DNA of 21,339 nt from a virus: positions 1 through 21,339 of the IMG/VR virus record IMGVR_UViG_3300047564_005286; one strand, 5' to 3'. Each line of letters begins with the position of its first letter. Within the stretch, counting starts at the first letter, position 1. Shown piece after piece: positions 1-19,658 of this stretch. The position numbers and the translations under genes are program-made. The notes beneath the pieces were generated by a model. The model did not search any database. It was not told the DNA's origin and saw only the letters and a program-made list of their open reading frames with translations.

Positions 1-2234
1 TTCACATTATCGGTAATAGCTTAACTGGATACGGTTACGCCGAAGGATTTTCGATTAAAAGCATTAAGGTCTTTGGAAAAGTTGCAGTTACAAACGATCC
101 CGATCCAGTTACCAGCGAAGAGACTGTCACGAGAACGATGTATGCCTTAGCTACAGTAAATCTAGAGGATACAATGCTTGGCGTATCACCAAGTCAATCT
201 AAGATTATAAGTTATACAACTTCATCTTTCCCAAGGCTTGGAGGAGAAATTACTGCTCTGACCATCGATGCTAAATTGGATGGCACTATTGCAGCTATAA
301 ATATTCTTCCAAATGGTCCAGTCAATGTTGATTCTTCTCAATTGTCAAGCATTTCTTTAATAGATAATTTAGATACTTTATTCTTAAATAATAAATTTAA
401 GATTAACTTTTCAAATCCACCTATTTTAATATGGGCTAATGGTGTCGCAATAGATTCGTTCAGCAATGATGGGTTAGAAATTACTAATGGAACTCCAATA
501 GAGATTTCCTATTCCAACGCCGCAGATAAAAAATCTGTAACTTTAACAGGTCAGACCTCATCTACATATTATTCTGACGCAACCTTCATACAAGATGGTC
601 CAAATCCAATATCTGGATATAGTTTGCAAAAACCAAATGGAACACCATTGCCCGGCACAAGAAATGCTACAAATGCTTCAGATGGAGTTTTGCTTTTATG
701 TAATTCGGACGGTGATCCTGTCGGACTTCTTGATTCATTAAACATACAGAATGGTGTTAGCGGACTCTCTTCTGCGGAGAGTCAAGAAGTGAATACTGCT
801 CTTGGAGATTTAAGTGTATTGAATTTACTTGGAGAGCAGGATGGCTTTATGTATGGATTCTATGACAGAAATAGATTAGAATTTATCGGTAGAGTGATAT
901 CATATACTGAGCTAGTTTCACGTGGCATTAACAATGTCTTTGTGGCCGTTTGTGCATATGATGCAGATGGAAATACTCTAAATCAGTCTGAATATATAGG
1001 TCCGACTAGTGATACTAAATTCATAGTTCCAAGGATTCCTTTAAAAACAATGTATCCAATATACTCTGTAAAGATGAGAAGATCATCATCTATTAGAGTA
1101 GATAAGATTGATCAAAATATATCCAAATTTGATATTTGGAACCTACCTATTTCAAGTGGAAGTTTTTGGAAAGATGTGTCTATTGTATCTAGACCATGGA
1201 CTGATTGGAAGTCTGATTATATAGGCCAGACTCTTAAGGCTTTTTACACCACTTTTGATGATCTAATCGAAGAGGGGTCGTCAGGTTTTGAATCTACTGG
1301 CACTGTCTGGTCTGAAATCTATGGTTATGGATTCTATGATATCAAGGATGAATCACCAGTTATATTAGATGATAGAACTATTCAACTTAGGAGAACTCCC
1401 TTATTAAAAGTAGCTTATCCAACTTCGGATTTAGCATCATCAACGGGAGTAATAAAACATGAAATTCATATTTTTACTCGCGAAACAGTATCATCTAGTT
1501 GGATAGAAGTAACTCACGATTTAATAAGAGATATTGATTCAAATACTGGAATTGTAAAATTTAGAACTAGACTTGTTCCTTCGGATAAGAATTTGATTAA
1601 GGTTAATTATGTCACGGCTAACAAGAATAGAATGATACATCAACTCAATGGAGAGATGATTCCCCTTAATCCATTGTTTAGCTCTTTAATGACCTTCGAC
1701 AATGGAAGTAAGGCAACTTTTGATGTTCCACTTTATATCTATTTAAAGCCGAAAGCTATTTATAAGCAACAAAACTTAGCTGACGCAATTAATATATCTG
1801 ATGTTAAATTGACAAAAATAACTGATTATACTTGTGACAAAACAATTGGATTCACTTACAATTCTGCCATCTTCAATAAGAATGTAAGCGAATATGACCC
1901 ATTTGCACTTCCCATTGCAATCATATATGTAACAAACAATCCCTATAGAATTCAACCTAATCTTTATGACGTAAGGGTCAGGGGTGGTGGTGTTGACGTC
2001 GATATTCCAACATCTACGTTAATCGAAAGCGTACCGGAGGTACTATCTAATTGGGATGTTTATCCGCCTTCTGGCATGGCGTATGCCCGTGGTGGTTATG
2101 TTATAATTAGAATACCTGCATCAGTTAAAGATCATTTCTTGAATGAAAAAGAAATTTATCAAGTAATATCAAATAATCTTACAGCTGGCATTGCATATGA
2201 ACTTCAAGATATGGATGGAAATAGTTGGAACTGA
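1..2234 (+). CDS. Large virion structural protein (tail/baseplate-like), 5' end cut by window edge
   Basis: The reading frame is open from base 3 without a stop, so the gene begins left of the window. The ATG at 138 is an internal methionine, because the 45 codons before it read as normal protein (for example GYGYAEGFSIKSIKVFG). At least 743 residues are present. The sequence is rich in Ser, Thr, Asn, Ile and aromatic residues in short alternating patterns, as in beta-sandwich phage tail and baseplate proteins. I see no signal peptide, membrane segment or enzyme motif. It heads a run of similarly long genes on the same strand, and the next gene starts one base after its stop. The size, composition and position suggest a tail, baseplate or appendage protein. 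The exact role is inferred and I do not recognise the family. Confidence 0.62.
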   Translation, partial: HIIGNSLTGYGYAEGFSIKSIKVFGKVAVTNDPDPVTSEETVTRTMYALATVNLEDTMLGVSPSQSKIISYTTSSFPRLGGEITALTIDAKLDGTIAAINILPNGPVNVDSSQLSSISLIDNLDTLFLNNKFKINFSNPPILIWANGVAIDSFSNDGLEITNGTPIEISYSNAADKKSVTLTGQTSSTYYSDATFIQDGPNPISGYSLQKPNGTPLPGTRNATNASDGVLLLCNSDGDPVGLLDSLNIQNGVSGLSSAESQEVNTALGDLSVLNLLGEQDGFMYGFYDRNRLEFIGRVISYTELVSRGINNVFVAVCAYDADGNTLNQSEYIGPTSDTKFIVPRIPLKTMYPIYSVKMRRSSSIRVDKIDQNISKFDIWNLPISSGSFWKDVSIVSRPWTDWKSDYIGQTLKAFYTTFDDLIEEGSSGFESTGTVWSEIYGYGFYDIKDESPVILDDRTIQLRRTPLLKVAYPTSDLASSTGVIKHEIHIFTRETVSSSWIEVTHDLIRDIDSNTGIVKFRTRLVPSDKNLIKVNYVTANKNRMIHQLNGEMIPLNPLFSSLMTFDNGSKATFDVPLYIYLKPKAIYKQQNLADAINISDVKLTKITDYTCDKTIGFTYNSAIFNKNVSEYDPFALPIAIIYVTNNPYRIQPNLYDVRVRGGGVDVDIPTSTLIESVPEVLSNWDVYPPSGMAYARGGYVIIRIPASVKDHFLNEKEIYQVISNNLTAGIAYELQDMDGNSWN

Positions 2235-2235
2235 A

Positions 2236-4851
2236 ATGAACAATAAATTAGCAGATAATATTAATACATTTTTTAATAATAGCAGAACAACTATTTCCAG
2301 TTTAGTCAGAGACATGAAGCTTGATAAAGCAGATTTCATGGCTTTAATCAAGAAAATAAATAGTAGTTCTAATTTTAATGATTTTATTCCAGCTCAGATT
2401 ATTAATTTTTCAGAGATACAGAAAGAGCCAGTTATTGATCTCTTCCGAGATTCTTCGTTGCGAATTAGTAGATTATTTAGTGCAACCAATGCAAGTGGTC
2501 TCGTAATAGATTCTTTGACAAATATCATGTCTGCAGATATTGAAAAAATTGAAGAAGATATCAAAAATCTACAAATATTTATAGACAACTATGAATTCTT
2601 GGCAGGTAAGGATGATCTCTATACCGGTAATTACATTGAAAAATTTGATAATTCATTAAATGACTATAAGTCAGATGGATATGATTTTTTGGTTCCAGAT
2701 AGAGATAATTCATCATTTCCTATAAGTGGAAATATATATATTGATTCTTTAGCTGGATTAATGAAAATGGGATCTGGCCATTCGATTAGTAATGTGATCA
2801 ATAATATCAAATCAATTAACTTAGTAAAAAATTATAATAATTACATTTCAAGTGAATCGAATTTTGTAAATGTGTTTACCGATTCTTTAGCTGATTCTTG
2901 GAACACGACAATAAAAAGTCCCGTATTACTTAATTCTGATCTCACCGATTATGCTCACTATATTCAGTATGACTCATCCATGGTCGCAGCAGGAGCTAAA
3001 GTAGCAGTAGAAATTAATCTACATTCGGCTATTGACGTGGATACAATCAGATTAAGTCCTAATCTTGGTAATGGGCTTCAGTTATTGCAGGTCGTCTTGT
3101 TCCAGAAGTTAGAAACAGATGGAATTACAGATGTTCAGATAAGTCAGTCTGAATATAAGCTTATTTTAGATGCGCCAAAAATTATAAATAGTTCAACTGA
3201 ATTATTATTCGAAAAATTCAGAACTAATAAAATGATTTTGATATTCAATCAATCATCGTATACTAGAAGTAAGAAACCATCTTTAATTTCAGAGTTAAAC
3301 TCAAAATCAATGAATGATTTTGTGATGAAAAGAATTGAAGAAAATAGAAGTAAATTCAGCAAATACCAAGACATTGTATATTGGTTCTTCAATAGAAAAT
3401 TTACTGTCAGCGGAATAAAGAAAAATTATACTAGCGATATTGAATATTATAGTTATAGGTTCCCAGAATCACTGCGCAGCTACGCGAAGTATGTGGAACA
3501 AGAATTTATAAAAGCATCGAATTTTTCTATTGCCGATAATCCTGTTTTTGTGAATAGTCCAATATTCCTTGATTTAATAAATTCAATGTTTAATACAGTC
3601 ATGAAAGATAAAAAGTTTTTAAGCCTAGGTCCGTCAATAAATACAAGATCTTATGGCATGAATTCCGCCAATTTAGGAAATCCTGGTTTTCTAACCGGAA
3701 GAGCCACAAATGATATGGATGATCCAAAGTATCAATTTTACTTAGATGGATACACTCCAACGATTTCAAATGATTTAATTAGATCATTGTTTGTTGAGGA
3801 AACCTCAGATGTATATGAATACAGTTTTTCAATGAAATCAATTGAATTTTTGTCAACAATATATAATCAAGTTTCTAAATCTTGTTTTGTAAGTAAAAAG
3901 ATACCTGTCAATGGACAGGTATTGGGAGTTAAGGCAAAAGTGCAAATAGTCAACGATTCAATTAACTCTTTAGAAAATAAATATGATTTAAACAAATACA
4001 CTTCATATGAATTGTCTGTATCTAATATTGACTATCCAATTTCAGAGACAGATTGGATGCCAATTGCATTCAATAACAGCAACTTCATTGACTCTGAAGT
4101 CGTATTTTTCGACATTAGTAATTTCTCTGCCAGTCTTCGTTTTCCTCCTAAAGCAGATAGTGTAATTCTTTATAAAGACGGAATGTTAATGAGCGCCTCT
4201 GCGTATGAGTATAGGACTGAATCAAATAGATTAATATTAAAAAATATAATAGAATTTAATCCATCGAGCATATTCGTGGCATCCTACACGATTGATGATA
4301 CAACGTATGATCCGTATCAGCTTGATCTTTTGAAGGCTAATGCGTATCAGGAATCGGTAAAGCAATATAGAAATAAAAATGGAGTTGGACAAATATTTGA
4401 TAGGACTAGCGGAAACGATACTGTTAAGATAGACTTTATTCCATATGTAAATACAGCAACTTTAACTGGTGCAGGTTATGATCAATTTTTTGGTACTATA
4501 TTTGCAAATAGTTTCACTGGTTATAGCCCTGTAAAAGTTAAGTTAGCAGATGGGTCATATGCGTTTAATCTAACAAATTATACTAGAACTCCCAAAAAGG
4601 TATCTTTTTCTGGAACTGAAACAGTGCAGTTTATTCAAACTGGAAAAGATATACTTTTTAATCAGCCTATCGATAGACCTTTTACTGTACAATATGAATA
4701 TGTTCCATATAGCTTAAGGTTTAGATTTGTCATGAGAAGAAATATTCTTGGTGTAGAAATTCCCGCAAGGGCAGATTCAGTTTTACTGAAACTGAAGACA
4801 GCTCATTTTGATCCATATTATGACAAGCTAGTCTATGTCGCACGTGCCTAA
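2236..4851 (+). CDS. Large virion structural protein (tail/baseplate-like), 871 aa
   Basis: I place the start at ATG 2236, one base after the previous stop. A frame-consistent ATG at 2191 exists but lies inside the upstream gene and would add 15 residues with an unlikely overlap. The N-terminal 130 residues are mostly charged and helical (for example IEKIEEDIKNLQIFIDNYEF). The rest is beta-rich. Residues about 526 to 612 carry a module also seen in the next two genes: a Y-x-Y-S-F-S-M-K-S-I-E-F opening and a DWMPI ending. Residues near 655 to 700 (PPKADSVILYKDGMLMSASAYEY) look like the beta-hairpin 'KDG' pattern frequent in phage tail proteins. No catalytic motif is visible. It is probably a tail or baseplate component. 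Function is inferred from context and composition. Confidence 0.62.
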   Translation: MNNKLADNINTFFNNSRTTISSLVRDMKLDKADFMALIKKINSSSNFNDFIPAQIINFSEIQKEPVIDLFRDSSLRISRLFSATNASGLVIDSLTNIMSADIEKIEEDIKNLQIFIDNYEFLAGKDDLYTGNYIEKFDNSLNDYKSDGYDFLVPDRDNSSFPISGNIYIDSLAGLMKMGSGHSISNVINNIKSINLVKNYNNYISSESNFVNVFTDSLADSWNTTIKSPVLLNSDLTDYAHYIQYDSSMVAAGAKVAVEINLHSAIDVDTIRLSPNLGNGLQLLQVVLFQKLETDGITDVQISQSEYKLILDAPKIINSSTELLFEKFRTNKMILIFNQSSYTRSKKPSLISELNSKSMNDFVMKRIEENRSKFSKYQDIVYWFFNRKFTVSGIKKNYTSDIEYYSYRFPESLRSYAKYVEQEFIKASNFSIADNPVFVNSPIFLDLINSMFNTVMKDKKFLSLGPSINTRSYGMNSANLGNPGFLTGRATNDMDDPKYQFYLDGYTPTISNDLIRSLFVEETSDVYEYSFSMKSIEFLSTIYNQVSKSCFVSKKIPVNGQVLGVKAKVQIVNDSINSLENKYDLNKYTSYELSVSNIDYPISETDWMPIAFNNSNFIDSEVVFFDISNFSASLRFPPKADSVILYKDGMLMSASAYEYRTESNRLILKNIIEFNPSSIFVASYTIDDTTYDPYQLDLLKANAYQESVKQYRNKNGVGQIFDRTSGNDTVKIDFIPYVNTATLTGAGYDQFFGTIFANSFTGYSPVKVKLADGSYAFNLTNYTRTPKKVSFSGTETVQFIQTGKDILFNQPIDRPFTVQYEYVPYSLRFRFVMRRNILGVEIPARADSVLLKLKTAHFDPYYDKLVYVARA

Positions 4852-4865
4852 GAATTGAGAATAGT

Positions 4866-7118
4866 ATGACACAAATTTCATCAAATACCTTAACATATGA
4901 TCAAATATATATTAAGATTAGAGAATTTTATATAAAGGAACTAAGAGGTGATTTTGGTTCAAATCAAGAGAGATTAACAGAATATAAGAAATTGATATCA
5001 GATATCCATGAATCGATGAATGGTCCAATGACCAAGTTTGATCCATACATAAAGGGTGAACCACCCATGTCTGAGAAGTTTAACACTTTTGCCAAATCCT
5101 TAGGAATAGATGTTAGCTTATTGTCTAAGCAGGTTGATTACCTTAATGCAAAAGCAATAAATGCTTTTAACCTATACTCTACTGAGATAGAGGCTGAGAA
5201 AAGGTATACTGAAAGGATAGCTTCAAAAGCTAAGATACTTCAGATGTACTCTAGGGCCCCATCTGAAGACTTGGTTTACATTGGAGACTCTTTCGATAAT
5301 GCAGATTTAGTTGACATTAGCAAAGTCGCGATTGGGCTCAATCCAATAATTAAAAATGGCATGCTAACTATGCCGGTTGCTAGAACTCGACCGTGGATTC
5401 CAAAAAATATATCAATTGATCAGCAATTCTCAAATGGATTTTATGGAAATAATCATCAGGTTATAAAAGATCTAAATACATCAAATTCATCTGAATACGA
5501 CTATGTATACCAGTCTAATAGAAGTATTTCTTCAATAACTGCACTAGCCGATACTAATCCTTTAACCTATTTTGAATATGAAATATTAAATGTAGATAAA
5601 ACTACAAGCAACCCTCCTGCAGATGTAAATTTGGTTTCCGAAGATGAATTCTGTTATGTTTCAAACAAGAGAATGAATAATAATATAACAGAAGGAACGC
5701 TAATCAATTGGTCAAATAGCGATATGAGTCAACCTCTTAAGTTGAGAGTTGTTTTAGAAAATTCATCTGGAGGTTTGGCTAATTCAATTAACATAGTTCC
5801 ATACTTTGGGTCAAGTAAACTGATCAAAATAACCAATATTAAGGCATATTATCAAAATGGTGATACGAAGGATGTAATTTCTGAACCAGTCTATATTGGC
5901 ACATCTTTCTCACCATTAAATCTAGACATCTCTTCAAATTACTTTTACAACGAAGCAACTATTAAATTTACAGAATTAAAGGCAGTTAAGTTTGAGATAG
6001 ATTTTGAGCAAGAACTAACTCAAGACCTGATGATTAAGCACACCTTCTTCAAACCAAGCTTTGCTGCCAATACTGGTCAAAATAATCCATTCTATGGATT
6101 ATCTAGATTTAACCCTAGTGCACTTAATCCTGAGGAGTTTCAGGATATTGAGTATGACAAGTATAAATTAGTTCCTAGTATCACCCTGCCTAATCAGTAT
6201 AAAGATTATGGCAATTATTCTGAATCAATACCAGTTAGGCTAACCAGGAAACCAACAACGTTTGGAGAGTATGCCATTGTAATCCATGGAACGAGAGCAA
6301 ATGCTAGTTCTATAACACAAGATTTTTATTATTATAATGGATCTCCATCTTCTGGTGCACTGACTACTTTCAATGCCGTCGCCAGTTTGGCTGATCTTTT
6401 TATGCCAGACGAAGCCGCTTATGCGACCCTCGGAAATAGAAGTACGTTTAGAACAGCTGAAGATGGTGCATCGGAGCTTGCTAGACTTATTGCTTATTTA
6501 GACGAAAACCTATATGATGCTGTTGATGAAAGATATGAAATAGAATTTCAAAATGCCGGAGGCATAGGTTATGTATACTATTTTTCTGCAGAAGATATTG
6601 GTATTGAATATGTTACATACACCAATGCTCCACAGCCAAGAACATGGACAGTCCCAGTTTCATTAGCCGAGGAACTGTACAGCGCAAAGCGAAAGAGTAT
6701 TGGAATTAGGGATATATCTGTCTCGTATGAAGTTTATGCTGATCGTGCGCAGATTGTTTCTACTCCATTTTATTTTGATTCACCAATTGAGTCTTTGATG
6801 TTATCTGTTGAATCAAATTATGACAATACATTTATAGACAGATTTGATATATCATATTATATCTCAATGAATGATTCTTCATGGATACAGATATCACCAA
6901 TTCAACTCTCGTCTAATGGTATTGCGGAAGTAATAGTTTTTAATAAAAATATTCCAACGAATTATCAAATACCTGGTGTGGCATATCTTAATTATCCAGA
7001 AATTCCAAATGAGGCGAACAAAGTTGCTGTTAAGATTGAGATGGCAAAAGAAAGATATTTAAATATAACTCCAGAGATATATTCGTATCAATTGATGGCA
7101 AAGGTTAAGAAACAATGA
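4866..7118 (+). CDS. Large virion structural protein (tail/baseplate-like), 750 aa
   Basis: The ATG at 4866 follows the previous stop by 14 bases, with a weak purine-rich site (GAGAATAG) before it. Residues 1 to about 130 are helical and charged, with a likely coiled segment (TEIEAEKRYTERIASKAKIL). The remainder is Ser/Asn/Tyr-rich and beta-like. Residues about 606 to 679 contain the shared module: KSIGIRDISVSYEVYADRAQIVSTP, written here in parts as KSIGIRDISVSY then ADRAQIVSTPFYF, ending in SSWIQISPI. The stop overlaps the next start in an ATGA junction, so the two products are probably made in coupled amounts. I see no enzyme motif. A tail, baseplate or appendage role is inferred from neighbours and architecture. 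Confidence 0.62.
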   Translation: MTQISSNTLTYDQIYIKIREFYIKELRGDFGSNQERLTEYKKLISDIHESMNGPMTKFDPYIKGEPPMSEKFNTFAKSLGIDVSLLSKQVDYLNAKAINAFNLYSTEIEAEKRYTERIASKAKILQMYSRAPSEDLVYIGDSFDNADLVDISKVAIGLNPIIKNGMLTMPVARTRPWIPKNISIDQQFSNGFYGNNHQVIKDLNTSNSSEYDYVYQSNRSISSITALADTNPLTYFEYEILNVDKTTSNPPADVNLVSEDEFCYVSNKRMNNNITEGTLINWSNSDMSQPLKLRVVLENSSGGLANSINIVPYFGSSKLIKITNIKAYYQNGDTKDVISEPVYIGTSFSPLNLDISSNYFYNEATIKFTELKAVKFEIDFEQELTQDLMIKHTFFKPSFAANTGQNNPFYGLSRFNPSALNPEEFQDIEYDKYKLVPSITLPNQYKDYGNYSESIPVRLTRKPTTFGEYAIVIHGTRANASSITQDFYYYNGSPSSGALTTFNAVASLADLFMPDEAAYATLGNRSTFRTAEDGASELARLIAYLDENLYDAVDERYEIEFQNAGGIGYVYYFSAEDIGIEYVTYTNAPQPRTWTVPVSLAEELYSAKRKSIGIRDISVSYEVYADRAQIVSTPFYFDSPIESLMLSVESNYDNTFIDRFDISYYISMNDSSWIQISPIQLSSNGIAEVIVFNKNIPTNYQIPGVAYLNYPEIPNEANKVAVKIEMAKERYLNITPEIYSYQLMAKVKKQ

Positions 7119-9283
7119 ACATTTCAGAAGTACAAAAAAGAAAATTTCTAAATAATATTCATAAATTATATTATTCATCTGGCAAAAAGCCTTCAGACCA
7201 CTCAATAAGAACCGCCTTTACTAAATATTTTTCTGTCAATAAATTTGGAGATCCAGTAACGATTGACACAAGTCAGATGCAAGTATCCAGCATCATCGAT
7301 CACAACATGCTAAATGAATTGATGGTCAATACGCTTCTAAATCTAGAAGTATTATACGAGTGTGTTATGGAAAACAATCAAGAAATCTATGGTGTTGTTA
7401 ATGCGCTAAATGATAAGCTCGATAACTTAAGGGCTAAAAGAAAAGAATTGGAATCTAAAGTCGATCAACTTCTTTTTTCTATAAATAATACAGATGGATT
7501 TTTCTACTCTTATTTAGACAATTTTTCAGGTATTGAAAAAATTGACATGGGAATGACTACAGCATATATTGACCTAGTCAATAACAATGTTTCAATACCA
7601 AAAATTGTTACAAGTACAAATCTTCAAACAGGAAGCTTGTCAACAGTTAGTCCAGCTTCTGTGACTTATTCAATATTATTCAATAATGAAGTTGTAGTTG
7701 ATAATGCTCCAGTTTCTAATTTTGATTTGACATTAGATGGATTAAACGACACGTTTTGGTCTTATCAACACTCTTTTAGCGCACCGGGAATTGTTGCATT
7801 GGTTCTCAATATGCCAGTGTCTATTCCTACTCCAATCTCTAAAGTGTCTGGATCAATCATGAGTTCCACACCGTGCTCAACCTTTATGAGAGCAATTCCA
7901 GCCTCTAGTGCTAATCCAGAGGTAATTAAGAGTAGAGATTCAAAAGGTGATTATAATAGATTTTCTTTTGTCATTCCATCAATAAATTATTCAAATATAT
8001 CTTTGACGTTTTATAAGAGTGAACCGGATAGAATTGTTAATAGCGAGTCCTCTCCGTATACCTATGAGTTTGGAATAAGAGAACTAAATGTTTCCGCCGA
8101 CTATCACGAGCAAAGAGCTCAGTTAGTGTCTTCGCCAATATACATACCAACATCGGACAATGAACTGTTATCGATCAGTGCCGTATCGATTGAGGTCGAT
8201 CATCAGGTAAATTCAGGTGTAGATATTTCGTATTTTGTTGCAGCAGATGTAGAAAATGGTTCATCTATATCTGATTTTGATTGGATACCGATTGAGCCAA
8301 CTAATATCAATTCGCAAGAGCAACCAAAAATAGTGAATTTACTCGGACCTACTCAAGCCAATGAAATGATAGGATTTGGGGGAGAAGGCTCTTTGGAGCC
8401 ATCAAATTACTATTTAATTCCAATGTCTACAGAGTCTGCTAATATAAATGATCTTAATCCGGTGACCCTTCCATTTTATCCCGATAAAACAGTATATAGA
8501 GTGGCAAGGTTGAATGAGTCAACTAAGTATCTACAACCATATATGCTAGCTAATCTAGAAACTTTTAGATATCACGCAATTATTAATTTGAATTACTCTA
8601 CAAATGTAAATTACATGTATAAATCATTAGAGGATTGGGCTGATAGAATTAGCGCAACTAGTGATCTAGAGCTATCTAGTGGCGTGTTTCAGAATACTAA
8701 CTCATCTATAACGGTGCCGAGAAATGAACCGCATTCTGGTTTATTAGAAACTAGTTTATTTTGCGATCAAGATAAAATAGTTTCTCATGAAATAATTAAG
8801 AGCCAAATAGATGGTCAAGATATGAATGTTGCTGTATATCTTAATGGAGTGTTGATTGCAGATCTTCCTTCTGGTCAGACTAAAACAAAAATAGAATGGA
8901 ATTTTGTAAAAGGAATTAACAATATTACAATTTCTTATGACAAATCATTTTCTGGAAAACCAATGATTGATTTGATGGTATCGCGAAATTTGACAGATTA
9001 TGGTACTATATTCCTTGATTATTTCTCGTATCTTGATCCTATAGATTTTGGTAGAAAAGTTAACAGTGAAGAAAATATTTTTACAATAACTCAATTTTAT
9101 GGATCAAAAGAAATTTTAGCTTCTAATCAGATTTCTAATAAAACAATATTGAGGTACTATCTAGATAAAGCTGATTTAGTAACTGCAGTTAGGTATAGAG
9201 CAGACTTATTCAGGTACGCTAACCCGCTTCAAACTCCAGTGATTGATGCAATTAGAGTTAGGTTTAAGCATAACGACGTTTAG
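7115..9283 (+). CDS. Large virion structural protein (tail/baseplate-like), 722 aa
   Basis: The start ATG overlaps the previous stop by four bases (ATGA), which implies translational coupling. Residues about 85 to 125 form a clear coiled-coil-like helix (LNDKLDNLRAKRKELESKV). The rest is beta-rich. Residues about 314 to 395 hold the module shared with the two genes upstream: YTYEFGIRELNVSADY, then EQRAQLVSSPIYIP, closing with DFDWIPIEP. The C-terminus ends with NPLQTPVIDAIRVRFKHNDV, a 'TPvId-I-V' pattern that resembles the end of the 417-residue protein downstream (TPPMLSDLIIDYI). The module content and synteny argue that this is a paralogous part of the same structure. Tail/baseplate assignment is inference. 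Confidence 0.62.
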   Translation: MNISEVQKRKFLNNIHKLYYSSGKKPSDHSIRTAFTKYFSVNKFGDPVTIDTSQMQVSSIIDHNMLNELMVNTLLNLEVLYECVMENNQEIYGVVNALNDKLDNLRAKRKELESKVDQLLFSINNTDGFFYSYLDNFSGIEKIDMGMTTAYIDLVNNNVSIPKIVTSTNLQTGSLSTVSPASVTYSILFNNEVVVDNAPVSNFDLTLDGLNDTFWSYQHSFSAPGIVALVLNMPVSIPTPISKVSGSIMSSTPCSTFMRAIPASSANPEVIKSRDSKGDYNRFSFVIPSINYSNISLTFYKSEPDRIVNSESSPYTYEFGIRELNVSADYHEQRAQLVSSPIYIPTSDNELLSISAVSIEVDHQVNSGVDISYFVAADVENGSSISDFDWIPIEPTNINSQEQPKIVNLLGPTQANEMIGFGGEGSLEPSNYYLIPMSTESANINDLNPVTLPFYPDKTVYRVARLNESTKYLQPYMLANLETFRYHAIINLNYSTNVNYMYKSLEDWADRISATSDLELSSGVFQNTNSSITVPRNEPHSGLLETSLFCDQDKIVSHEIIKSQIDGQDMNVAVYLNGVLIADLPSGQTKTKIEWNFVKGINNITISYDKSFSGKPMIDLMVSRNLTDYGTIFLDYFSYLDPIDFGRKVNSEENIFTITQFYGSKEILASNQISNKTILRYYLDKADLVTAVRYRADLFRYANPLQTPVIDAIRVRFKHNDV

Positions 9284-9297
9284 TCAAGAAGGATTTT

Positions 9298-9690
9298 ATG
9301 CCAAAAATATATAGTAATCAACAGAATGTTGAAAGATTTCGTGAGCCAGTTTTCAGTATTCGTAGAACAAAATTTAGAGGCTCTAGATCTAGTGAGTCAG
9401 AAAATTTAGAAACAAATTTAATTAAAATTGATTTAAGTAGAATTTTAAAAGAATTAGAAACAATAGATACTTCTATTGAAGATGATTTAATTTATTTATT
9501 AGGCGATATAAACGATATAACAACAGAAGTTTTAGCTGATGATGGACTATCTTATCAAATTTCTGGAGTTCAATTTTACTATGATGACACATCAACTCTT
9601 GAAAATCTAGAGATAGATACTACACAAAAGATAAGTGGTCGGTTGTCAAGACTTTTAAGTAAGGTACAAAGATTAGAGAGCGGTACATAA
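9298..9690 (+). CDS. Small structural-region protein of unknown function, 130 aa
   Basis: The ATG at 9298 has a fair ribosome binding site (AAGGA, 9288-9292) about five bases upstream. The N-terminus is basic (FREPVFSIRRTKFRGSRSS). Residues about 40 to 70 are helical and acidic, and the C-terminus is an amphipathic basic helix (KISGRLSRLLSKVQRLESGT). There is no membrane segment, signal peptide or recognisable catalytic motif. It is sandwiched between large tail-like genes, and its last stop codon directly abuts the next ATG. It could be a small linker, a tail assembly factor or an oligomerising helical part of the baseplate. I cannot choose between these. Confidence 0.5.
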   Translation: MPKIYSNQQNVERFREPVFSIRRTKFRGSRSSESENLETNLIKIDLSRILKELETIDTSIEDDLIYLLGDINDITTEVLADDGLSYQISGVQFYYDDTSTLENLEIDTTQKISGRLSRLLSKVQRLESGT

Positions 9691-10944
9691 ATGGCTGATA
9701 TTTTGAACACAAAGAAGCGCGATTACCAATACAATGGGCCAGTTGAGAGTTCTGACTATAATGCCAGGATTGAAGAAAACTATAAAGATTTAGTTTATTT
9801 ATACAATAGATCTACACTAGTAGACAATAAGCTGTCTCAGGCTTTTGAGCGGGTGATAAAAGATCAAAGATTTTTAACTTGTGCTATTCAGGATTTAGAG
9901 GATCGAGTTTTGGCATTAGAAAGCGCATCAAATAAAGTTTCCATAACATCATTCAGTCAAATAGATAATGCCTCTTTTATTGAGAGTGACTTTGCGTTAT
10001 CAGCTTCAGAAATTTTAACTTTTGATCCAATTTACAATGTTATCACTTTACCTAAATTGGTAAGTAGCTCTTTTTCAAAGCTAAAATTCGCCAACGCCAC
10101 TTATGGCCAAGTTATCCCTGATTTCTTTAAGGCAAAAATAGATAATTCTCTTGGTGGAGTAGATGTTGGTGGCGCTGTCGTTGACACGACGCCAATATAT
10201 AATGCGATATTAGATTCCTCGGATAAGGTTTGGAAGAGAAATATTATTTCAAATTCAACGTCTCCGTCTGGAGCTCAAATGATGCTCTATGTTAAGGTTC
10301 CAGCGGAAGCCGCTGGTTCAATGAAAACAAATATGATAAAATTGAATCCTTATCCAGCTTTTGGTACGGATATTTTGACTATTGAGTATACAACTAAGCC
10401 AAATCCATCTTTAACAAGCTCTGATGGATGGCGTCCATTGAATAAAAATGGATACTATGACGGAGTTACGGAAGCTATTGGCAAGGTTCCACCTGGAGGC
10501 TGGGCAACCTCAGGCACTGATGCCGCAAGAAACTCTGGTCCTTTAGCGTTTTTATTTGGCGATTTAGATATAACAGCAATTAGAATTAAATTTGTGCAAC
10601 GTAATTACTTTACTGAAAGCGGTAAATACATCTATACATATGGTTTATCTGATTTAGACATTAGATATGATAAGTATTTACCTACAGGTAGAGTTATGAT
10701 TAAGTATACTCCGCCAAATGGTGATTTAATTAGTGAAGTCACAAATGTGACTCCCAAAATATTCAATGTACCAGCGAGCTCTCTGTCCTCCGCCTTTAGC
10801 TATAGAGTAATATATGAGTCTGGTGGATCTTATACATTAGAAAATCCTGGATCATCTAATTATGTTTGGATTGAAGTAACTCTCTCCATGCTAGAAGACA
10901 AGACGCCGCCAATGTTAAGTGATTTAATTATCGATTATATTTAG
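9691..10944 (+). CDS. Virion structural protein (tail/appendage-like), 417 aa
   Basis: The ATG at 9691 immediately follows the previous TAA. Upstream purines (GAGAG) give only a weak binding site, so coupling is likely. The first 95 residues are helical, ending in a coiled-coil-like stretch (DQRFLTCAIQDLEDRVLALESAS). Residues about 100 to 417 are beta-like and Gly/Pro/Ser-rich. Residues 311 to 340 (GKYIYTYGLSDLDIRYDKYL) resemble the opening of the module found in the long genes upstream, but the rest of the module is less clear. The C-terminal VWIEVTLSML plus TPPMLSDLIIDYI echoes the end of the 722-residue protein. It is the last gene of the large structural cluster before a 57-base gap. It is likely a tail or fibre-attachment protein, by inference. 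Confidence 0.58.
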   Translation: MADILNTKKRDYQYNGPVESSDYNARIEENYKDLVYLYNRSTLVDNKLSQAFERVIKDQRFLTCAIQDLEDRVLALESASNKVSITSFSQIDNASFIESDFALSASEILTFDPIYNVITLPKLVSSSFSKLKFANATYGQVIPDFFKAKIDNSLGGVDVGGAVVDTTPIYNAILDSSDKVWKRNIISNSTSPSGAQMMLYVKVPAEAAGSMKTNMIKLNPYPAFGTDILTIEYTTKPNPSLTSSDGWRPLNKNGYYDGVTEAIGKVPPGGWATSGTDAARNSGPLAFLFGDLDITAIRIKFVQRNYFTESGKYIYTYGLSDLDIRYDKYLPTGRVMIKYTPPNGDLISEVTNVTPKIFNVPASSLSSAFSYRVIYESGGSYTLENPGSSNYVWIEVTLSMLEDKTPPMLSDLIIDYI

Positions 10945-11001: not shown

Positions 11002-11634
11002 ATGACAACTTTTTATGTTGGGCCTAGACCGGTTCTTAAGGGCAGAAGCTCTGCAGAAATGGTCAACCCTTACACTTCAATGACAGGAAAAGCAAAAGGT
11101 TCCGGTACCTATTCTTTCTATCCGCTGTATAGCACCAGTCACGTTCTAGACGGGGCTCCCGATAATCACTTTGATCCAGGTACTGGTCAGTTCCCTGGAA
11201 ATAGATTTTTATCTCAAATTTTTAACGGCAGTACCCTCTATGTTCATCCGCTTTCTGGAACCTTTGCAGATGGCGCTGGCTACGATGGCGCTCGTTTTAA
11301 GCCGAATGAGTTCAAGGGTCTATCTGGTGCAGCAGCATTCCCTTCTGATTTCGGACATGCAGATAGAGAAAGTGAATATGCTCATTCACTCTACATCTTC
11401 GATGGTGTAACTTCCGCTAATCCGCTTACCAATGTTGGTCACGGACAGCGTACGGAGGCTCAGGGCGCTCCTAATTCTTTTGGATACTTTGTTCCAGCTG
11501 AATTTAATGGTGTGACTAGTGCAACCATATTCACCACTGGCTATGGCCAGGGGTATCCCGCTGGCTACGACAATGAGTATGGCAAGAATAGAGTAAAAGA
11601 GTTCAGAGGTGTTCCTTCGGCGAAAGCTCTCTGA
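11002..11634 (+). CDS. F-x-G repeat protein, probable abundant virion protein, 210 aa
   Basis: A strong ribosome binding site (AAGGAG, 10992-10997) lies five bases upstream of the ATG, better than those of the neighbouring structural genes. The protein is rich in Gly, Tyr, Phe, Ser and Ala. From residue 74 it contains five spaced copies of F-x-G-x-x-[SG]-A or close variants, at residues 74 (FNGSTLY), 104 (FKGLSGA), 133 (FDGVTSA), 168 (FNGVTSA) and 201 (FRGVPSA), spaced 29 to 35 residues. Segments such as GHGQ and GYGQG sit between them. No signal peptide, membrane segment or enzyme motif is visible. The preceding 57-base gap is AT-rich with a weak promoter-like TATATT at 10970-10975. A head decoration, fibre or tail surface protein would fit. 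I do not recognise the family. Confidence 0.6.
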   Translation: MTTFYVGPRPVLKGRSSAEMVNPYTSMTGKAKGSGTYSFYPLYSTSHVLDGAPDNHFDPGTGQFPGNRFLSQIFNGSTLYVHPLSGTFADGAGYDGARFKPNEFKGLSGAAAFPSDFGHADRESEYAHSLYIFDGVTSANPLTNVGHGQRTEAQGAPNSFGYFVPAEFNGVTSATIFTTGYGQGYPAGYDNEYGKNRVKEFRGVPSAKAL

Positions 11635-12963: not shown

Positions 12964-15054
12964 ATGAGTAATCCAATTGTGACAACTGTCAGTGAATCAA
13001 ACACATCAAAAGCTAATATGTTTAGTTTTCGGTTGTCAGAAGATTTTATAGATACCTACAAAACTAAAAAAGCACCCTTTGGCTATGGTGATGCGGTCGG
13101 TAATTCAGTCGGAGAAATAACGTTTCTTAGAACTTATTCTAGAATAAAAGAGGATGGTAAAAAAGAAACATGGGTAGATGTGTGTGAGCGAGTTATTAAT
13201 GGAATGTACTCTCTCCAAAAAGAACACTGCAAAAAGAACAGATTACCATGGAATGATTTAAAGGCTCAGGCCTCAGCTAAAGAAGCTTTTGATAGATTGT
13301 TCAATCTCAAGTGGACTCCTCCAGGACGCGGTCTTTGGGTTATGGGTACTCCAATTGTAATGATTCAAAAGAACTCAGCAGCCCTGCAGAACTGTGCGTT
13401 TGTTAGTACTGGAGAAATGACTAAGAATAATCCGGCGAAGCCTTTTGGCTTCCTAATGGAAGCATCTATGCTTGGTGTTGGTGTTGGGTTTGACGACAAA
13501 GGTGCTGATAAAGATTTTACTATTTACGAACCAAATAGACCGACAATCGCGGAGCAGATTGAAGACTCACGTGAGGGATGGGTTAACTCAACAATACAGC
13601 TTATTAATTCATATTTAAAGCCAGACCAGAATCCAATTGAGTTTGACTACAGCTCGATCAGACCAGCTGGCACCCCCATTAAGACTTTTGGCGGCACTGC
13701 AGCCGGTGCTGATCCACTAATCAAGCTGCATAACCATATCCGTAAGATGTTCGATGGTCGGAATGGGGAAAAGCTTACTAGAGTCGACATTGCTGATATT
13801 GGCAATACAATCGGTGTATGTGTGGTCTCTGGCAATGTCCGTAGATCAGCAGAGCTTTTAATTGGCCGTATTGATGACGATAATTTCTTGAATCTAAAGA
13901 ACGCAGAGCGTTTTCCTGAAAGAAACTCTTACGATTCTAGCGCCCCTGGATGGGGGTGGATGTCAAATAACTCAGTAGAAGTTTCGGTTGGTACCGATCT
14001 ATCTTCTATTGTTGATGGTATCTCCAGAAATGGTGAACCAGGAGTTATCTGGATGGATATGTCACGTAAGTATGGCCGTCTTGCGGATCCTGCGAACAAT
14101 AAGGATTGGCGAGTCGCTGGCTATAATCCGTGCGCCGAACAATCGCTTGAGTCGTATGAATGCTGTACTCTTGTAGAGACATATTTAAATAGACATGATT
14201 CTTTAGACGATTTTAAGCGTACGCTAAAGTTTGCGTATCTCTATGCAAAAACAGTAACACTGCTTCCAACCCACTGGGAAGAAACCAATGCAATCATGCA
14301 AAGAAATAGAAGAATTGGAACATCAGTATCAGGTGTAGCCAACTTTGCAGATAGACTGGGAATGCCAGTTTTAAGAGACTGGTTGGATCAAGGGTATCAA
14401 ACCGTTCAAAGATATGATAATATCTATTCAGAGTGGCTTGGAATTCGTGAGTCAATTAAAACAACTACAGTCAAGCCATCTGGCACTGTTTCGATTTTGG
14501 CTGGCGAATCTCCAGGAGTTCACTGGACTCCTGGTGGGAAATACTTCATGCGAGCAATTCGATTTGCAAACGATGATCCAATGTTGCCATTATTCCGTAT
14601 GGCAAACTATAATGTTGAGCCAGCTTCTGAGTCGCCAGACACTACTTCGGTAGTATTTTTCCCAATCATGTCCGATGCTAAGAGATCTGAAAAAGATGTT
14701 ACGATCTTTGAAAAGATGTCAATTGCAGCAGCTGCCCAGAGATATTGGTCAGATAACTCGGTTTCAGTGACAATATCATTTGACTCGGAAACAGAAAAAG
14801 AGCATGTGGGCACAGTTTTACACATGTATGATGGTCAGTTAAAGACTGTTTCATTCCTTCCACAGGGTAACTTTACATATCCCCAGATGCCTTATACTCA
14901 AATTACAGAAGAAGAATACAATCAAGCTTCTATGAATCTATTTCCAATTGATTTAACTGGAATCTATGAGGGTTTGGCCGCTGATGCCGTAGGAGAAAAT
15001 TATTGCACTACAGATAGCTGTGAAATAAAGTTCGTAAAAGAAAACGCAAAATAA
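12964..15054 (+). CDS. nrdJ: Class II (adenosylcobalamin-dependent) ribonucleoside-triphosphate reductase, monomeric type
   Basis: The enzyme reduces ribonucleoside triphosphates to deoxyribonucleoside triphosphates using a B12-derived radical, without oxygen or a second subunit. The 696 residues include QNCAFVST (active-site Cys144), VSGNVRRSAELLIG (289-302), the catalytic NPCAEQ (Cys390, Glu392), and Cys401 eleven residues later. That spacing equals the C408/C419 pair of the Lactobacillus leichmannii enzyme. KPSGT is at 504-508. The C-terminus has the redox pair Cys681-x4-Cys686 (CTTDSC), also as in that enzyme. Length is slightly below the usual ~740. The start is ATG 12964 with AGGAG (12953-12957) six bases upstream. 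It lies with thyX and dCMP deaminase in one dNTP-supply operon. Cobalamin must come from the host or the environment. The family call is firm. Confidence 0.95.
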   Translation: MSNPIVTTVSESNTSKANMFSFRLSEDFIDTYKTKKAPFGYGDAVGNSVGEITFLRTYSRIKEDGKKETWVDVCERVINGMYSLQKEHCKKNRLPWNDLKAQASAKEAFDRLFNLKWTPPGRGLWVMGTPIVMIQKNSAALQNCAFVSTGEMTKNNPAKPFGFLMEASMLGVGVGFDDKGADKDFTIYEPNRPTIAEQIEDSREGWVNSTIQLINSYLKPDQNPIEFDYSSIRPAGTPIKTFGGTAAGADPLIKLHNHIRKMFDGRNGEKLTRVDIADIGNTIGVCVVSGNVRRSAELLIGRIDDDNFLNLKNAERFPERNSYDSSAPGWGWMSNNSVEVSVGTDLSSIVDGISRNGEPGVIWMDMSRKYGRLADPANNKDWRVAGYNPCAEQSLESYECCTLVETYLNRHDSLDDFKRTLKFAYLYAKTVTLLPTHWEETNAIMQRNRRIGTSVSGVANFADRLGMPVLRDWLDQGYQTVQRYDNIYSEWLGIRESIKTTTVKPSGTVSILAGESPGVHWTPGGKYFMRAIRFANDDPMLPLFRMANYNVEPASESPDTTSVVFFPIMSDAKRSEKDVTIFEKMSIAAAAQRYWSDNSVSVTISFDSETEKEHVGTVLHMYDGQLKTVSFLPQGNFTYPQMPYTQITEEEYNQASMNLFPIDLTGIYEGLAADAVGENYCTTDSCEIKFVKENAK

Positions 15055-15063
15055 GGAATAAAA

Positions 15064-15402
15064 TTGTCTAAAGATAATAATGATAAAGATTTCGAAAAAA
15101 TATTTAGTGAAATGGTAAATTCTGAAGATTTAAAAGACATTAAAGAAGAATTTGAAGCAAATATTAAAATGGGTATTAAAGAACTGGCATTAATCCAGCA
15201 ATCTTTATCAGATGTAATTTCTCATGTAGCTGAAATTATGATGTCAGCTTTAACCGGTGACAACATTTTTGAAGATGATAATATATTTCATAATTTACTT
15301 TCTTCATTATATAAAATATCAGAAGATTTCAATGAATGCATGTTAGAATATTACTCAGAAGATTTGTTAGATGATGAAGAGCTTGGAGGAGAAGATGATT
15401 GA
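15064..15402 (+). CDS. Small acidic protein of unknown function, 112 aa
   Basis: The start is TTG 15064, supported by AAGGA at 15053-15057, which overlaps the nrdJ stop. The next ATG in frame is 16 codons in and has no such site. The protein is strongly acidic and helical throughout, ending with DLLDDEELGGEDD. A mid-protein hydrophobic helix (LSDVISHVAEIMMSALTG) looks amphipathic rather than membrane-spanning. Its end overlaps the start of thyX by eight bases, and the thyX ribosome binding site lies inside its last codons. That position between nrdJ and thyX suggests co-expression with dNTP synthesis, perhaps as an adaptor or inhibitor. No family is recognised. Confidence 0.55.
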   Translation: MSKDNNDKDFEKIFSEMVNSEDLKDIKEEFEANIKMGIKELALIQQSLSDVISHVAEIMMSALTGDNIFEDDNIFHNLLSSLYKISEDFNECMLEYYSEDLLDDEELGGEDD

Positions 15403-16069
15403 AGTTCTAGATAGAGGCTATGTAAGATTAGTCGATATAATGGGTGATGATTTATCGGTAGTTAATGCAGCACGTGCGTCTTTTGCAAAAGAGTCATCAG
15501 CAATGACAGATGCCGATGAGAGACTAATTAAATTTCTTGTAAGAGAGAATCATATGTCTCCTTTCAGACATGCGTTCATGACGTTTGAATTTAAAGCACC
15601 ACTTATGGTGGCTCGTCAGCATTGGAAGTATATCATTGGAAGTGACCATACAATGGATGGCTGGAATGAGTCTAGTCGTCGTTATGTAACCTCAGATCCA
15701 GAGTTTTATGTTCCCGACGTATGGCGCTCTGCTCCAGAAAATAAGAAGCAGGGATCTGGAGCGCCAGTTGATGGATTAATTGCAGATCAATTAACCTTAG
15801 ATCTAATAAGATATTACTCTGAGGGAATATCACTTTACGAAAAGGCGATGGACGATGGCGTGGCAGCCGAGCAAGCTAGACTTTTCCTTCCCGCATATGG
15901 GATGTACGTTAATTATAGATGGTCTTGCAGCCTTCAGTCTGTTATGTTATTCTTGAATCAACGCCTAGCAGAAGATTCTCAAGTTGAGATTCAAGAGTAT
16001 GCAAAAGCAGTGAAGGAATTGGTAAAAGATAAGTTTCCAGTATCAATGTCTCTTTTGATTGAGGAGTAA
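15395..16069 (+). CDS. thyX: Flavin-dependent thymidylate synthase ThyX
   Basis: ThyX methylates dUMP to dTMP using methylene-tetrahydrofolate, FAD and NADPH. I start at ATG 15395, five bases after GGAGG (15385-15389). An earlier ATG at 15371 lies inside the upstream gene and lacks such a site. The 224 residues show NHMSPFRHAFMTFEFKAP (52-69, the usual H-x-SPF-x-H region), ARQHWKYIIG (73-82), NESSRRYV (91-98), and the C-terminal ARLFLPAYGMYVNYRW (161-176) plus an R-x9-E region (LNQRLAEDSQVEIQEYA). The common RHR-x7-S signature is altered: RQHWK replaces RHR, with about eight extra residues (SDHTMDGW) before NESSRRY. It sits between nrdJ and dCMP deaminase, which supplies dUMP. The family call is strong and activity is likely. 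Confidence 0.92.
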   Translation: MIEVLDRGYVRLVDIMGDDLSVVNAARASFAKESSAMTDADERLIKFLVRENHMSPFRHAFMTFEFKAPLMVARQHWKYIIGSDHTMDGWNESSRRYVTSDPEFYVPDVWRSAPENKKQGSGAPVDGLIADQLTLDLIRYYSEGISLYEKAMDDGVAAEQARLFLPAYGMYVNYRWSCSLQSVMLFLNQRLAEDSQVEIQEYAKAVKELVKDKFPVSMSLLIEE

Positions 16070-16230
16070 TGGAATTTTTTATTAAATTAGTTCTCTTTGT
16101 ATTGATATCAAACTGGTGGATATCCATGCATAACGTGGTAAATAAGACTGATAATCGTCAGACTAGATATATCGCACTGCTGTGGGCAGTTGCCTTTTCT
16201 GTTGCATGTGGGTTTTTAATTATTCCATGA
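16069..16230 (+). CDS. Tiny two-helix membrane protein, 53 aa
   Basis: The ATG at 16069 overlaps the thyX stop as TAATG, and the TGA at 16228-16230 overlaps the next ATG as ATGA, so this 53-codon frame fills the gap exactly. GAGGAG (16061-16066) lies close upstream, only two bases from the ATG, so coupled re-initiation is likely. Residues about 3 to 17 (FFIKLVLFVLISNWW) and 35 to 53 (YIALLWAVAFSVACGFLII) are hydrophobic helices. Between them is a polar basic loop (HNVVNKTDNRQTR). It has no recognised family. A membrane-located phage small protein is plausible, but nothing shows its function. Confidence 0.62.
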   Translation: MEFFIKLVLFVLISNWWISMHNVVNKTDNRQTRYIALLWAVAFSVACGFLIIP

Positions 16231-16685
16231 TTTCAAGAAAAGATATTCAATTTATGAAAATGTGTGTATCTATGTCAAATGTCTTTGCGACATGCGCAAA
16301 GAGACAGTATGCAGCGATACTCACTGACGATTTAGGACACATTGTTGGCACTGGTTATAATGGTGGTCCTCGGGGGATGGTTCATTGCGTTGATGGCGGT
16401 TGTCCAAGACTATTACAGCAGTCTGCTCATGGTAGCAATTATGATAATTGTATAGCAATTCATGCGGAAGCAAATGCCTTTTTACATTCAGATTATAGCT
16501 CTAGACCAACTAAGCTATATGTGAATGGGCCTCCATGTTTTTCTTGTGCGAAATTAATTGCAAATTCAACAGTGACTGATGTATACTTCTTTGAGGATGA
16601 GGCTTATCTCGATTGGCCAAACGTAAATAAATTCTTATCAAATTGTAATATAAAAACATGGAAGGTAGATCGTGCCAGCGTCTAA
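16227..16685 (+). CDS. dCMP deaminase (zinc-dependent cytidine deaminase family)
   Basis: The enzyme deaminates dCMP to dUMP, the substrate of ThyX. The 152 residues contain the zinc-binding, catalytic HAEANAF (His/Glu, residues about 83-89) and PPCFSCAKL (Cys-x2-Cys, about 102-110). An upstream GYNGGPRG (about 44-51) and the CVDGGCPR Cys-rich stretch are typical of phage dCMP deaminases. The start ATG 16227 overlaps the tiny membrane-protein stop. An upstream in-frame ATG at 16182 would read into that gene's frame and add hydrophobic residues unlike the family, so I reject it. The family call is firm. The pathway assignment comes from synteny with thyX and nrdJ. Confidence 0.93.
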   Translation: MISRKDIQFMKMCVSMSNVFATCAKRQYAAILTDDLGHIVGTGYNGGPRGMVHCVDGGCPRLLQQSAHGSNYDNCIAIHAEANAFLHSDYSSRPTKLYVNGPPCFSCAKLIANSTVTDVYFFEDEAYLDWPNVNKFLSNCNIKTWKVDRASV

Positions 16686-16893
16686 GTTGAATTACGTGAT
16701 TGTGTACAAGAATCATAGTCAAGTATATGGTTCCTCTTCTAAGAAAATAGCTGAAGATAGCCCGCCTCCCGAAGGAGTATCAGCTGAAGATAAGCATATC
16801 TTCTTCGTAACATTTGAACCAGAAACCGATCAAATTTGTTTATATAACATCAACAACCAGGAAGAAAGTAATGAGCAAGAAGTATCTGAATAA
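16672..16893 (+). CDS. Hypothetical small protein, 73 aa
   Basis: The start is GTG 16672, with GGAAGG at 16660-16665 six bases upstream, and it overlaps the dCMP deaminase end by 14 bases. The protein has a beta-like N-terminal half (LNYVIVYKNHSQVYGSS), a Pro-rich middle (EDSPPPEGVSAEDKH) and an acidic, Asn-rich tail (NNQEESNEQEVSE). No membrane segment, signal or motif is visible. It overlaps the next small gene by 23 bases. I do not recognise it. Confidence 0.5.
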   Translation: MPASKLNYVIVYKNHSQVYGSSSKKIAEDSPPPEGVSAEDKHIFFVTFEPETDQICLYNINNQEESNEQEVSE

Positions 16894-17104
16894 GAAGAAA
16901 GTAAATGTTAAGGTAATGAATGGTCAGACTGTTGTGGTCTTACCATGGGAGTGGTTTATGCACATAGCAGAAACTTATGACTACCTTGCAACAGAGCAGG
17001 CTGATCCAGAAGATATGCGCTGGTATTGTGAATTGGCTGACGCAATTAGATTCCAATCTGACGAGAACTTATTTTCTAACATTGAAGAATATGATGAATG
17101 GTGA
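16871..17104 (+). CDS. Hypothetical small protein, 77 aa
   Basis: I start at ATG 16871, with AGGAAG just upstream (16859-16864). An in-frame ATG at 16814 lies inside the preceding gene without a supporting site. The N-terminus is very basic (MSKKYLNKKKVNVKV). The remainder is aromatic and acidic, with LPWEWFMHIAETYDYL (residues 24-39) and a C-terminal acidic tail (NIEEYDEW). No catalytic motif or membrane helix is visible. It is spaced four bases from the glycosyltransferase that follows. Function unknown. Confidence 0.52.
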   Translation: MSKKYLNKKKVNVKVMNGQTVVVLPWEWFMHIAETYDYLATEQADPEDMRWYCELADAIRFQSDENLFSNIEEYDEW

Positions 17105-17107
17105 ATA

Positions 17108-17911: not shown

Positions 17912-17912
17912 C

Positions 17913-18269
17913 ATGGATCCATATTGGTACAGAGCATCAGTCGTCAAAGTGATAGATGGTGACACCCTAGACATTGACATCGATCTAGGCTTTGATATTT
18001 GGCACTCAATTCGAGTTAGGTTATACGGAATTGATGCCGCAGAAGTCAGATCAAGTAATGCAGAGATAAAAGAATCAGGATTAAAAGCAAAAGAGTTTGT
18101 CAAAAATTGGTTTGATAGACGTGGATATAATATCTTAATCCAGACTAAAAGAGATAAAACAGAAAAATATGGTAGGATTTTAGCCGAAGTATATTCTGGA
18201 CTAGATAACCTAAATAATGATTTGATTACAGAAGGTTTGGCAAAGCCTTATTTTGGAGTTAAAAAATAA
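17913..18269 (+). CDS. Staphylococcal-nuclease-like (thermonuclease family) enzyme, 118 aa
   Basis: The start ATG 17913 is one base after the glycosyltransferase stop. An upstream in-frame ATG at 17757 sits inside that gene and adds residues unlike the family. The fold landmarks are all present: KVIDGDT (12-18), IRVRLYGIDAAEVR (33-46) with the catalytic Arg36, metal-binding Asp41 and Glu44, KYGRILAEV (85-93) with catalytic Arg88, and LITEGLAKPY (104-113). These equal R35, D40, E43 and R87 of S. aureus nuclease, so it should cut DNA or RNA in a Ca-dependent way. There is no signal peptide, unlike secreted homologues, implying action inside the infected cell, for example host DNA breakdown. It abuts the deoxyribosyltransferase-like gene. 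Confidence 0.88.
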   Translation: MDPYWYRASVVKVIDGDTLDIDIDLGFDIWHSIRVRLYGIDAAEVRSSNAEIKESGLKAKEFVKNWFDRRGYNILIQTKRDKTEKYGRILAEVYSGLDNLNNDLITEGLAKPYFGVKK

Positions 18270-18677: not shown

Positions 18678-18688
18678 AGAGGTAGAAA

Positions 18689-18883: not shown

Positions 18884-18897
18884 TTGTAATATCCACT

Positions 18898-18938: not shown

Positions 18939-18952
18939 CAAAGGGAGTTGTA

Positions 18953-19648: not shown

Positions 19649-19658
19649 GGAGAAAGCA

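Follow-up and report, generated by a model that had tools for sequence, protein, structure and literature searches.

Four of the seven genes at the left end of a 21.3-kb virus record (IMGVR_UViG_3300047564_005286) were recognized by comparison of their sequence profiles as anciently duplicated paralogues, which probably form peripheral arms or pyramids of a phage baseplate. The record was analyzed as a whole (21,339 nucleotides, hereafter the window), and all positions given below refer to it; the seven genes are all encoded on the plus strand and are followed by nucleotide-metabolism and glycosyltransferase genes. In the paralogues, genes 2, 3, 4, and 6, the repeated unit represents nearly the whole protein, comprising an N-terminal helix of ~60 residues, a CBM32/F5-8C-type (discoidin-like) jelly roll, and a C-terminal beta-sandwich, the module, which resembles the end of DUF4815 proteins. 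The original prediction, made from the sequence of the window, had regarded a module of ~80 residues as the repeated element, which proved too narrow, the real unit comprising ~300–400 residues. Its proposal that a tail or appendage structure grew by duplication and divergence is supported in the sense of a peripheral tail or baseplate structure, and the conserved adjacency would most readily be explained by duplications in tandem.

The evidence is based on profile-profile comparisons. As paralogues entered each other's profiles, family assignment by iterated hidden Markov models (HMMs) was dropped for the statistics, and profiles composed of orthologues of one gene only, without any cross-family match at E 1e-20, were used instead. 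With sequences of the close clade only, genes 3 and 4 matched each other with P 2.9e-7, located at the module, and the top match between genes 2 and 4 likewise was the module (P 0.0014), compared with 0.08–0.5 for the control genes 1 and 5. After addition of distant orthologues, each of the six pairings of genes 2, 3, 4, and 6 proved to be colinear, with P values of 1e-11 to 1e-20. The whole-unit profile of gene 2 reached 1.4e-11, 1.6e-19, and 1.2e-11 versus genes 3, 4, and 6, respectively, and that of gene 6 reached 3e-15, 1.2e-11, and 1.7e-11 versus genes 4, 2, and 3. This colinear similarity is significant beyond the controls, with reversed profiles of the whole unit giving 0.07–0.7. Gene 1 returned nothing in the whole-unit comparison with the four paralogues, and neither gene 1 nor gene 5 could be aligned with them along the unit. 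Considered alone, the N-terminal parts of the paralogues still matched with P 1e-10 to 1e-16. The genes and domains concerned are the following:

2236–4851, plus strand: gene 2, 871 amino acids (aa), paralogue 1; unit at residues ~31–632 plus a C-terminal extension (open reading frame, ORF; profile-profile comparison)
3811–4071, plus strand: module of gene 2, residues 526–612 (profile scores versus the modules of genes 4 and 3)
4612–4806, plus strand: closing C-terminal strands of gene 2, residues ~793–857, common to genes 3 and 4 (profile-profile comparison)
4866–7118, plus strand: gene 3, 750 aa, paralogue 2 (ORF; PHROG 21108; AlphaFold (AF2) model)
5070–5252, plus strand: long N-terminal helix of gene 3, residues 69–129, a probable coiled coil (AF2 model, local predicted local distance difference test (pLDDT) 57–83)
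5271–6056, plus strand: CBM32/F5-8C-like jelly roll of gene 3, residues 136–397 (VIA-align Z 12–14 to CBM32 domains)
6063–6635, plus strand: insertion of gene 3 from jelly roll to module, residues ~400–590 (AF2 model; length variation among orthologues)
6672–7115, plus strand: uninterrupted module of gene 3, residues 603–750 (profiles; AF2 model; DUF4815 C-terminal profile, P 0.011)
7115–9283, plus strand: gene 4, 722 aa, paralogue 3 (ORF; PHROG 19683, virion structural protein)
7667–8032, plus strand: CBM32-like jelly roll of gene 4, residues ~185–306 (match of profile A7; Pfam in orthologues)
8036–8350, plus strand: module of gene 4, residues 308–412 (profile score versus the gene 3 module; DUF4815 C-terminal profile, P 4.6e-4)
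9008–9271, plus strand: closing C-terminal strands of gene 4, residues ~632–719, about 220 residues past the module opening (full gene 3 profile, score 47.4, P 6.2e-8)
9298–9690, plus strand: gene 5, 130 aa, not a paralogue, probable fibre anchor (orthologous ORFs with fused fibre/lectin parts)
9691–10944, plus strand: gene 6, 417 aa, paralogue 4, the most compact copy (profiles; AF2 model)
10018–10617, plus strand: CBM32-like jelly roll of gene 6, residues 110–309 (VIA-align Z up to 11.7)
10624–10938, plus strand: module of gene 6, residues 312–416, complete in the model (strand and helix order as in gene 3; module HMM)

The positions at which the original prediction had seen the module were exact, with 3811–4071 corresponding to residues 526–612 of gene 2, 6681–6903 to 606–679 of gene 3, 8054–8299 to 314–395 of gene 4, and 10621–10710 to 311–340 of gene 6. 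The strings RAQIVSTP, RAQLVSSP, and SKKIPV, then SSWIQIS, FDWIPIE, and TDWMPIA, are present as quoted. The first of its sequence patterns held for gene 2 and fits loosely in genes 4 and 6 (last position L for I, with further deviations in gene 6); in gene 3 only its second half was found (KRKSIGIRDI), the first half being absent. As single sequences, compared by Smith-Waterman alignment with shuffles, the modules of genes 3 and 4 scored well above chance (z 14.0), followed by genes 2 and 4 (4.9), genes 4 and 6 (4.8), and genes 3 and 6 (3.1), and gene 4 used as query on the window recovered the gene 3 module unaided. The modules of genes 2 and 3 were no better than chance in this test (z 0.6), a result which, together with the wide distribution of CBM32-like jelly rolls, would be in line with beta-sandwich building blocks that were separately acquired or converged, with no gene duplication. 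We judge such an origin highly improbable in respect to the colinear similarity across helix, jelly roll, and module (P down to 1e-20) and to the module, which matches no Pfam family able to serve as a shared widespread block.

Orthologue-only profiles gave module scores of 97.9 for genes 3 and 4 (P 3.7e-18), 68.0 for genes 2 and 4 (P 3.7e-12), and 50.1 for genes 2 and 3 (P 8.8e-9). This is the profile-profile comparison that had been suggested as a check of the common module, and its range of 50–98 stands against a maximum of 23.0, with the second value at 15.7, among 164 controls consisting of unrelated segments and reversed profiles. The top control paired the gene 2 module with residues 1–106 of gene 1 (23, P 0.0012); being a short gapped match, it was judged to be the noise ceiling. 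At the level of sequence, the modules of genes 2, 3, and 4 are thus classified as homologous. Gene 6 scored 25–34 against the other modules (P 8.5e-4 to 2.7e-5) over an opening of ~30 residues only, in agreement with the original prediction of a similar opening. The restriction to an opening fell with the AF2 model, which contains the whole module; gene 6 is a full copy. Genes 2, 3, and 4 additionally have closing C-terminal strands in common (P 4e-5 to 5e-8), e.g., with scores of 44.4 between those of genes 2 and 4 (P 4.7e-8) and 31.8 between gene 3 and those of gene 2 (P 4.4e-5).

An HMM of the module, applied to 13 phage records, detected copies in three adjacent genes of each, except for two in G003, where the contig edge cuts the third. 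A weak fourth copy appeared in gene 6 orthologues of 3 of the 13 records (E 2.7e-5 to 4.8e-4), covering positions 3–87 of the 99 of the model. The only detections elsewhere in these records were a weak match (E 7.6e-4) in MTATph1 and those at the duplicated ends of one contig. The module profile (A11) led to no convincing solved structure by sequence.

Relatives of the window were difficult to access by single sequences: a scan of IMG/VR with the gene 3 protein and a scan of a phage collection with the gene 6 protein returned no match. One syntenic contig was found by direct scan, and with alignments as queries 73 loci were retrieved from IMG/VR, as well as two contigs of bacteria (Oceanobacillus, Paenibacillus). 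Annotated relatives are Bacillus phage KLEB27-3 and Moorella phage MTATph1, with gp053–059 and CDS0053–0058, respectively, as syntenic counterparts, labeled in these records only as “structural” or “hypothetical” proteins. The four orthologous lines hold one order in the IMG/VR phages, KLEB27-3, and MTATph1. In a tree of 73 units, the gene label changes three times, which is the minimum and was reached by none of 200 shuffles. Genes 3, 4, and 6 form one branch each (support 100, 91, and 94), and gene 2 falls into two neighboring branches, still compatible with one origin; the deepest order is weakly supported (85%). Units grouping by gene and not by phage indicate that the duplications are old, and according to this tree the copies predate the split of the window's metagenome clade from the phages of Bacillus, Paenibacillus, and Moorella. 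This gene-by-gene grouping, together with the fixed gene order, is a further argument against an origin without duplication. The existence of compact and inserted forms in four lines makes the order of events accessible to study.

In KLEB27-3 and phages related to it, two or three separate genes take the place of gene 2 (L001 6505–9978, L066 6591–9798, L075 6307–9798, L078 5841–8704), the module of KLEB27-3 lying in the last piece. One 229-kb contig (G008, IMGVR_UViG_2889049205_000001) carries the whole cluster at both ends (914–7846 and 212685–219616), reflecting either a long terminal redundancy or an assembly overlap.

The domain order was deduced from AF2 models of gene 3 (mf79c2c67c77f) and gene 6 (m4ba867007417), each with a mean pLDDT of 82, which were compared by order of strands and helix. 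Both models have a long helix in the N-terminal part (residues 69–129 in gene 3 and 20–77 in gene 6), followed by the jelly roll (136–397 and 110–309) and the final beta-sandwich (603–747 and 312–416), in which strand order and place of the short helix are identical. Structure prediction had been proposed as a second check and yielded a matching predicted beta-sandwich in these two proteins. A helix is found at the corresponding position in the other paralogues, and members of all four lines share an SxDYN-like motif ahead of it. The size of the proteins differs by insertions: ~190 residues between jelly roll and module in gene 3, with a length varying among orthologues; ~175 residues after the jelly roll and ahead of the module in gene 2, with more after the module; and a long extra part after the module in gene 4. 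The gene 4 module may either be split by an insertion of ~220 residues or be followed by a second partial copy.

The middle domain has the jelly-roll fold of CBM32 and F5_F8_type_C in both models, with root-mean-square deviations of 2.3–3.5 A over 120–140 residues. VIA-align Z values were 12–14 for the predicted gene 3 domain to CBM32 and relatives and 9–12 for that of gene 6 (best 11.7, 4zy9, 130 residues, 2.6 A), i.e., 9–14 in total. For gene 4, profile A7 matched CBM32 structures by sequence (4a42, E 2.1e-4; 4lks, E 5.5e-4). Two gene 4 orthologues exceeded the Pfam cut-off of F5_F8_type_C (37.1 and 31.0 bits versus 28.2; E 3.9e-9 and 3.1e-7); window gene 4 alone had no Pfam match, and no Pfam family was above cut-off in the structural proteins of the window. 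Unlike the known domains of these families, the jelly roll here is embedded in a structural protein, and sugar binding is putative. A role of the four proteins as receptor-binding proteins themselves, with CBM32-like domains binding cell-wall sugars, would build on this fold in genes 3, 4, and 6. We rate it as quite unlikely, considering that all four are kept in phages of very different hosts and that the variable, swapped parts lie elsewhere, in gene 5 fusions and gene 3 extensions.

Placement of the paralogues at the baseplate is suggested by a Foldseek search of the PDB with the gene 3 model, in which ORF65 of the phi812 baseplate ranked first (E 9.6e-8, probability 1.00, over the whole model). 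VIA-align assigned this match a Z of 12.5 over 136 residues (2.6 A), mostly one domain. The DUF4815 protein of phage K has the same sequence as ORF65 and is 56% identical to gp106 of Listeria phage A511, whose trimers represent the pyramids of the double-layered baseplate, turning to the cell wall (PMC9863714). Like the paralogues, these proteins have a jelly roll followed by a C-terminal beta-sandwich, which may be the same domain as the module: its profile lines up in register with each of the four modules (P 4.6e-4 to 0.011; reversed module segments 0.27–0.75). Their gene likewise lies downstream of a baseplate wedge gene. They differ in being one protein of 1151–1152 aa instead of four paralogues and in the DUF4815 N-terminal part, which is absent from the window paralogues. 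In BFVD, the gene 3 model matched A7KUU5, A7KUU6, A7KUU7, and A7KUU9 (E 1.6e-9 to 1.7e-36), near-consecutive accessions which we take to belong to Bacillus phage 0305phi8-36. Their lengths of 755, 591, 686, and 398 aa are as expected of the four paralogues, an independent hint from modeled structures that four proteins of one phage may share this architecture.

The genomic context points in the same direction. Baseplate_J was detected in six of seven relatives, five of them over the cut-off, indicating a contractile tail in the relatives (the window does not extend far enough to show this). G001, a close relative, encodes it ~12 kb upstream of the cluster and in the same orientation. In KLEB27-3, the genes for baseplate wedge and tail fibres come first, then the cluster, and after it the lysis genes for holin and endolysin.

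Several points weigh against the baseplate assignment. The DUF4815 Pfam model (PF16075; N-terminal part, 570 positions) matches none of the four proteins and nothing at the cluster in relatives, the sequence-profile link to DUF4815 is weak one by one, and the highest Z values come from a jelly roll of the common CBM32 type. Phage_sheath_1 was weak in one of the seven relatives and undetected in the other six (G001, G002, G007, G010, KLEB27-3, and MTATph1) despite Baseplate_J in most, perhaps because of a diverged sheath. Furthermore, the PHROGs category for these proteins is head and packaging, in line with paralogues that decorate the head or tail shaft as whiskers or curly fibres instead of forming baseplate arms. 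Phage 0305phi8-36, described with related domain content, possesses curly fibres along with numerous additional virion proteins (PMC2147016). The same paper assigns the curly-fibre candidates to orfs 119–121 and 126–134, and names orfs 162–164 as candidates for host recognition. As the genes sit after Baseplate_J among fibre genes and the best structural match is a baseplate protein, we consider decorations unlikely.

We favor peripheral baseplate arms or pyramids as the probable function. Helices, as putative coiled coils, would join the proteins into oligomers that are attached to the baseplate wedges, and the beta domains would build arms or pyramids at the baseplate edge of the contractile tail. 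Inserted or fused domains and neighbor proteins of the gene 5 type would carry fibres or lectins touching the cell surface; the fibres would recognize the host and the arms pass on the signal triggering contraction. A more speculative extension is that genes 2, 3, and 4 form an obligate hetero-trimer via their helices, whereby a homotrimeric gp106-like pyramid would have been replaced, after two duplications, by an asymmetric three-chain arm with an own insertion per chain, capped or bridged by gene 6. The number of strong copies, three, and their similar helix lengths would be compatible with a hetero-trimer having taken over from a homotrimer.

Candidate host-contact parts of this kind accompany genes 5 and 3 in relatives. 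ORFs orthologous to gene 5 reach 2087–2089 aa in L006 and L007, with Laminin_G_3 in L007 (the one scanned), and 654 aa with CBM_4_9 and Lcl_C in L012. Because of these fused fibre/lectin parts, gene 5 is a probable fibre anchor, and its N-terminus looks like an exchangeable anchor of fibres or lectins. Gene 3 matches the virion structural protein PHROG 21108 (E 3.5e-28), whose 1867 positions span gene 3 plus a VWA-type following part. Elsewhere, gene 3 orthologues continue into large proteins or have them as downstream neighbors; VWA domains occur in several of these, including:

L057, 11641–16623: VWA-containing large protein at a gene 3 orthologue
L056, 11701–15363: VWA-containing large protein at a gene 3 orthologue
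L061, 9803–14209: VWA-containing large protein at a gene 3 orthologue

Therefore, host-contact parts appear to be hung on the paralogue set. PMC2147016 describes the orfs 162–164 stretch of 0305phi8-36 as a hyperplastic host-recognition candidate, with gp164 containing a VWA domain, as do the gene 3 extensions or followers in relatives of the window; the paralogue families named in the passages considered (a, b, c, f) concern other genes.

Downstream of the cluster, a 210-aa protein (11002–11634) has repeats of the kind F-x-G-x-x-S-A and no Pfam family; being 79% identical in L002, it is the best conserved protein of the block. Positions 12964–20935 encode a B12-dependent ribonucleotide reductase, ThyX, dCMP deaminase, and two family-2 glycosyltransferases, along with staphylococcal-nuclease-like and deoxyribosyltransferase-like genes.

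A known precedent is provided by gp10, gp11, and gp12 of phage T4, peripheral baseplate proteins from adjacent genes whose common primordial fold is masked by inserted parts (PMC3004832). Both systems share a duplication-type kinship of neighboring genes with inserted loops, presumably for peripheral baseplate proteins in the window as well. The T4 fold (helix and small sheets, as described in PMC3004832) appears to differ from the one modeled here, and no protein of the gp10, gp11, or gp12 type was among the structure matches listed for the models. Moreover, the T4 kinship is visible in structures only, whereas here it can also be traced in sequence profiles, and the T4 set of three is joined here by a fourth copy. 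In the literature searched, the present family is nowhere described as paralogous. Recognition of the repeated unit provides some 8.7 kb of structural genes, present in many large phages, with a role that can be tested, and would add a sequence-traceable case of contractile-tail baseplate growth by gene duplication to the one argued from structures for T4 gp10–gp12.

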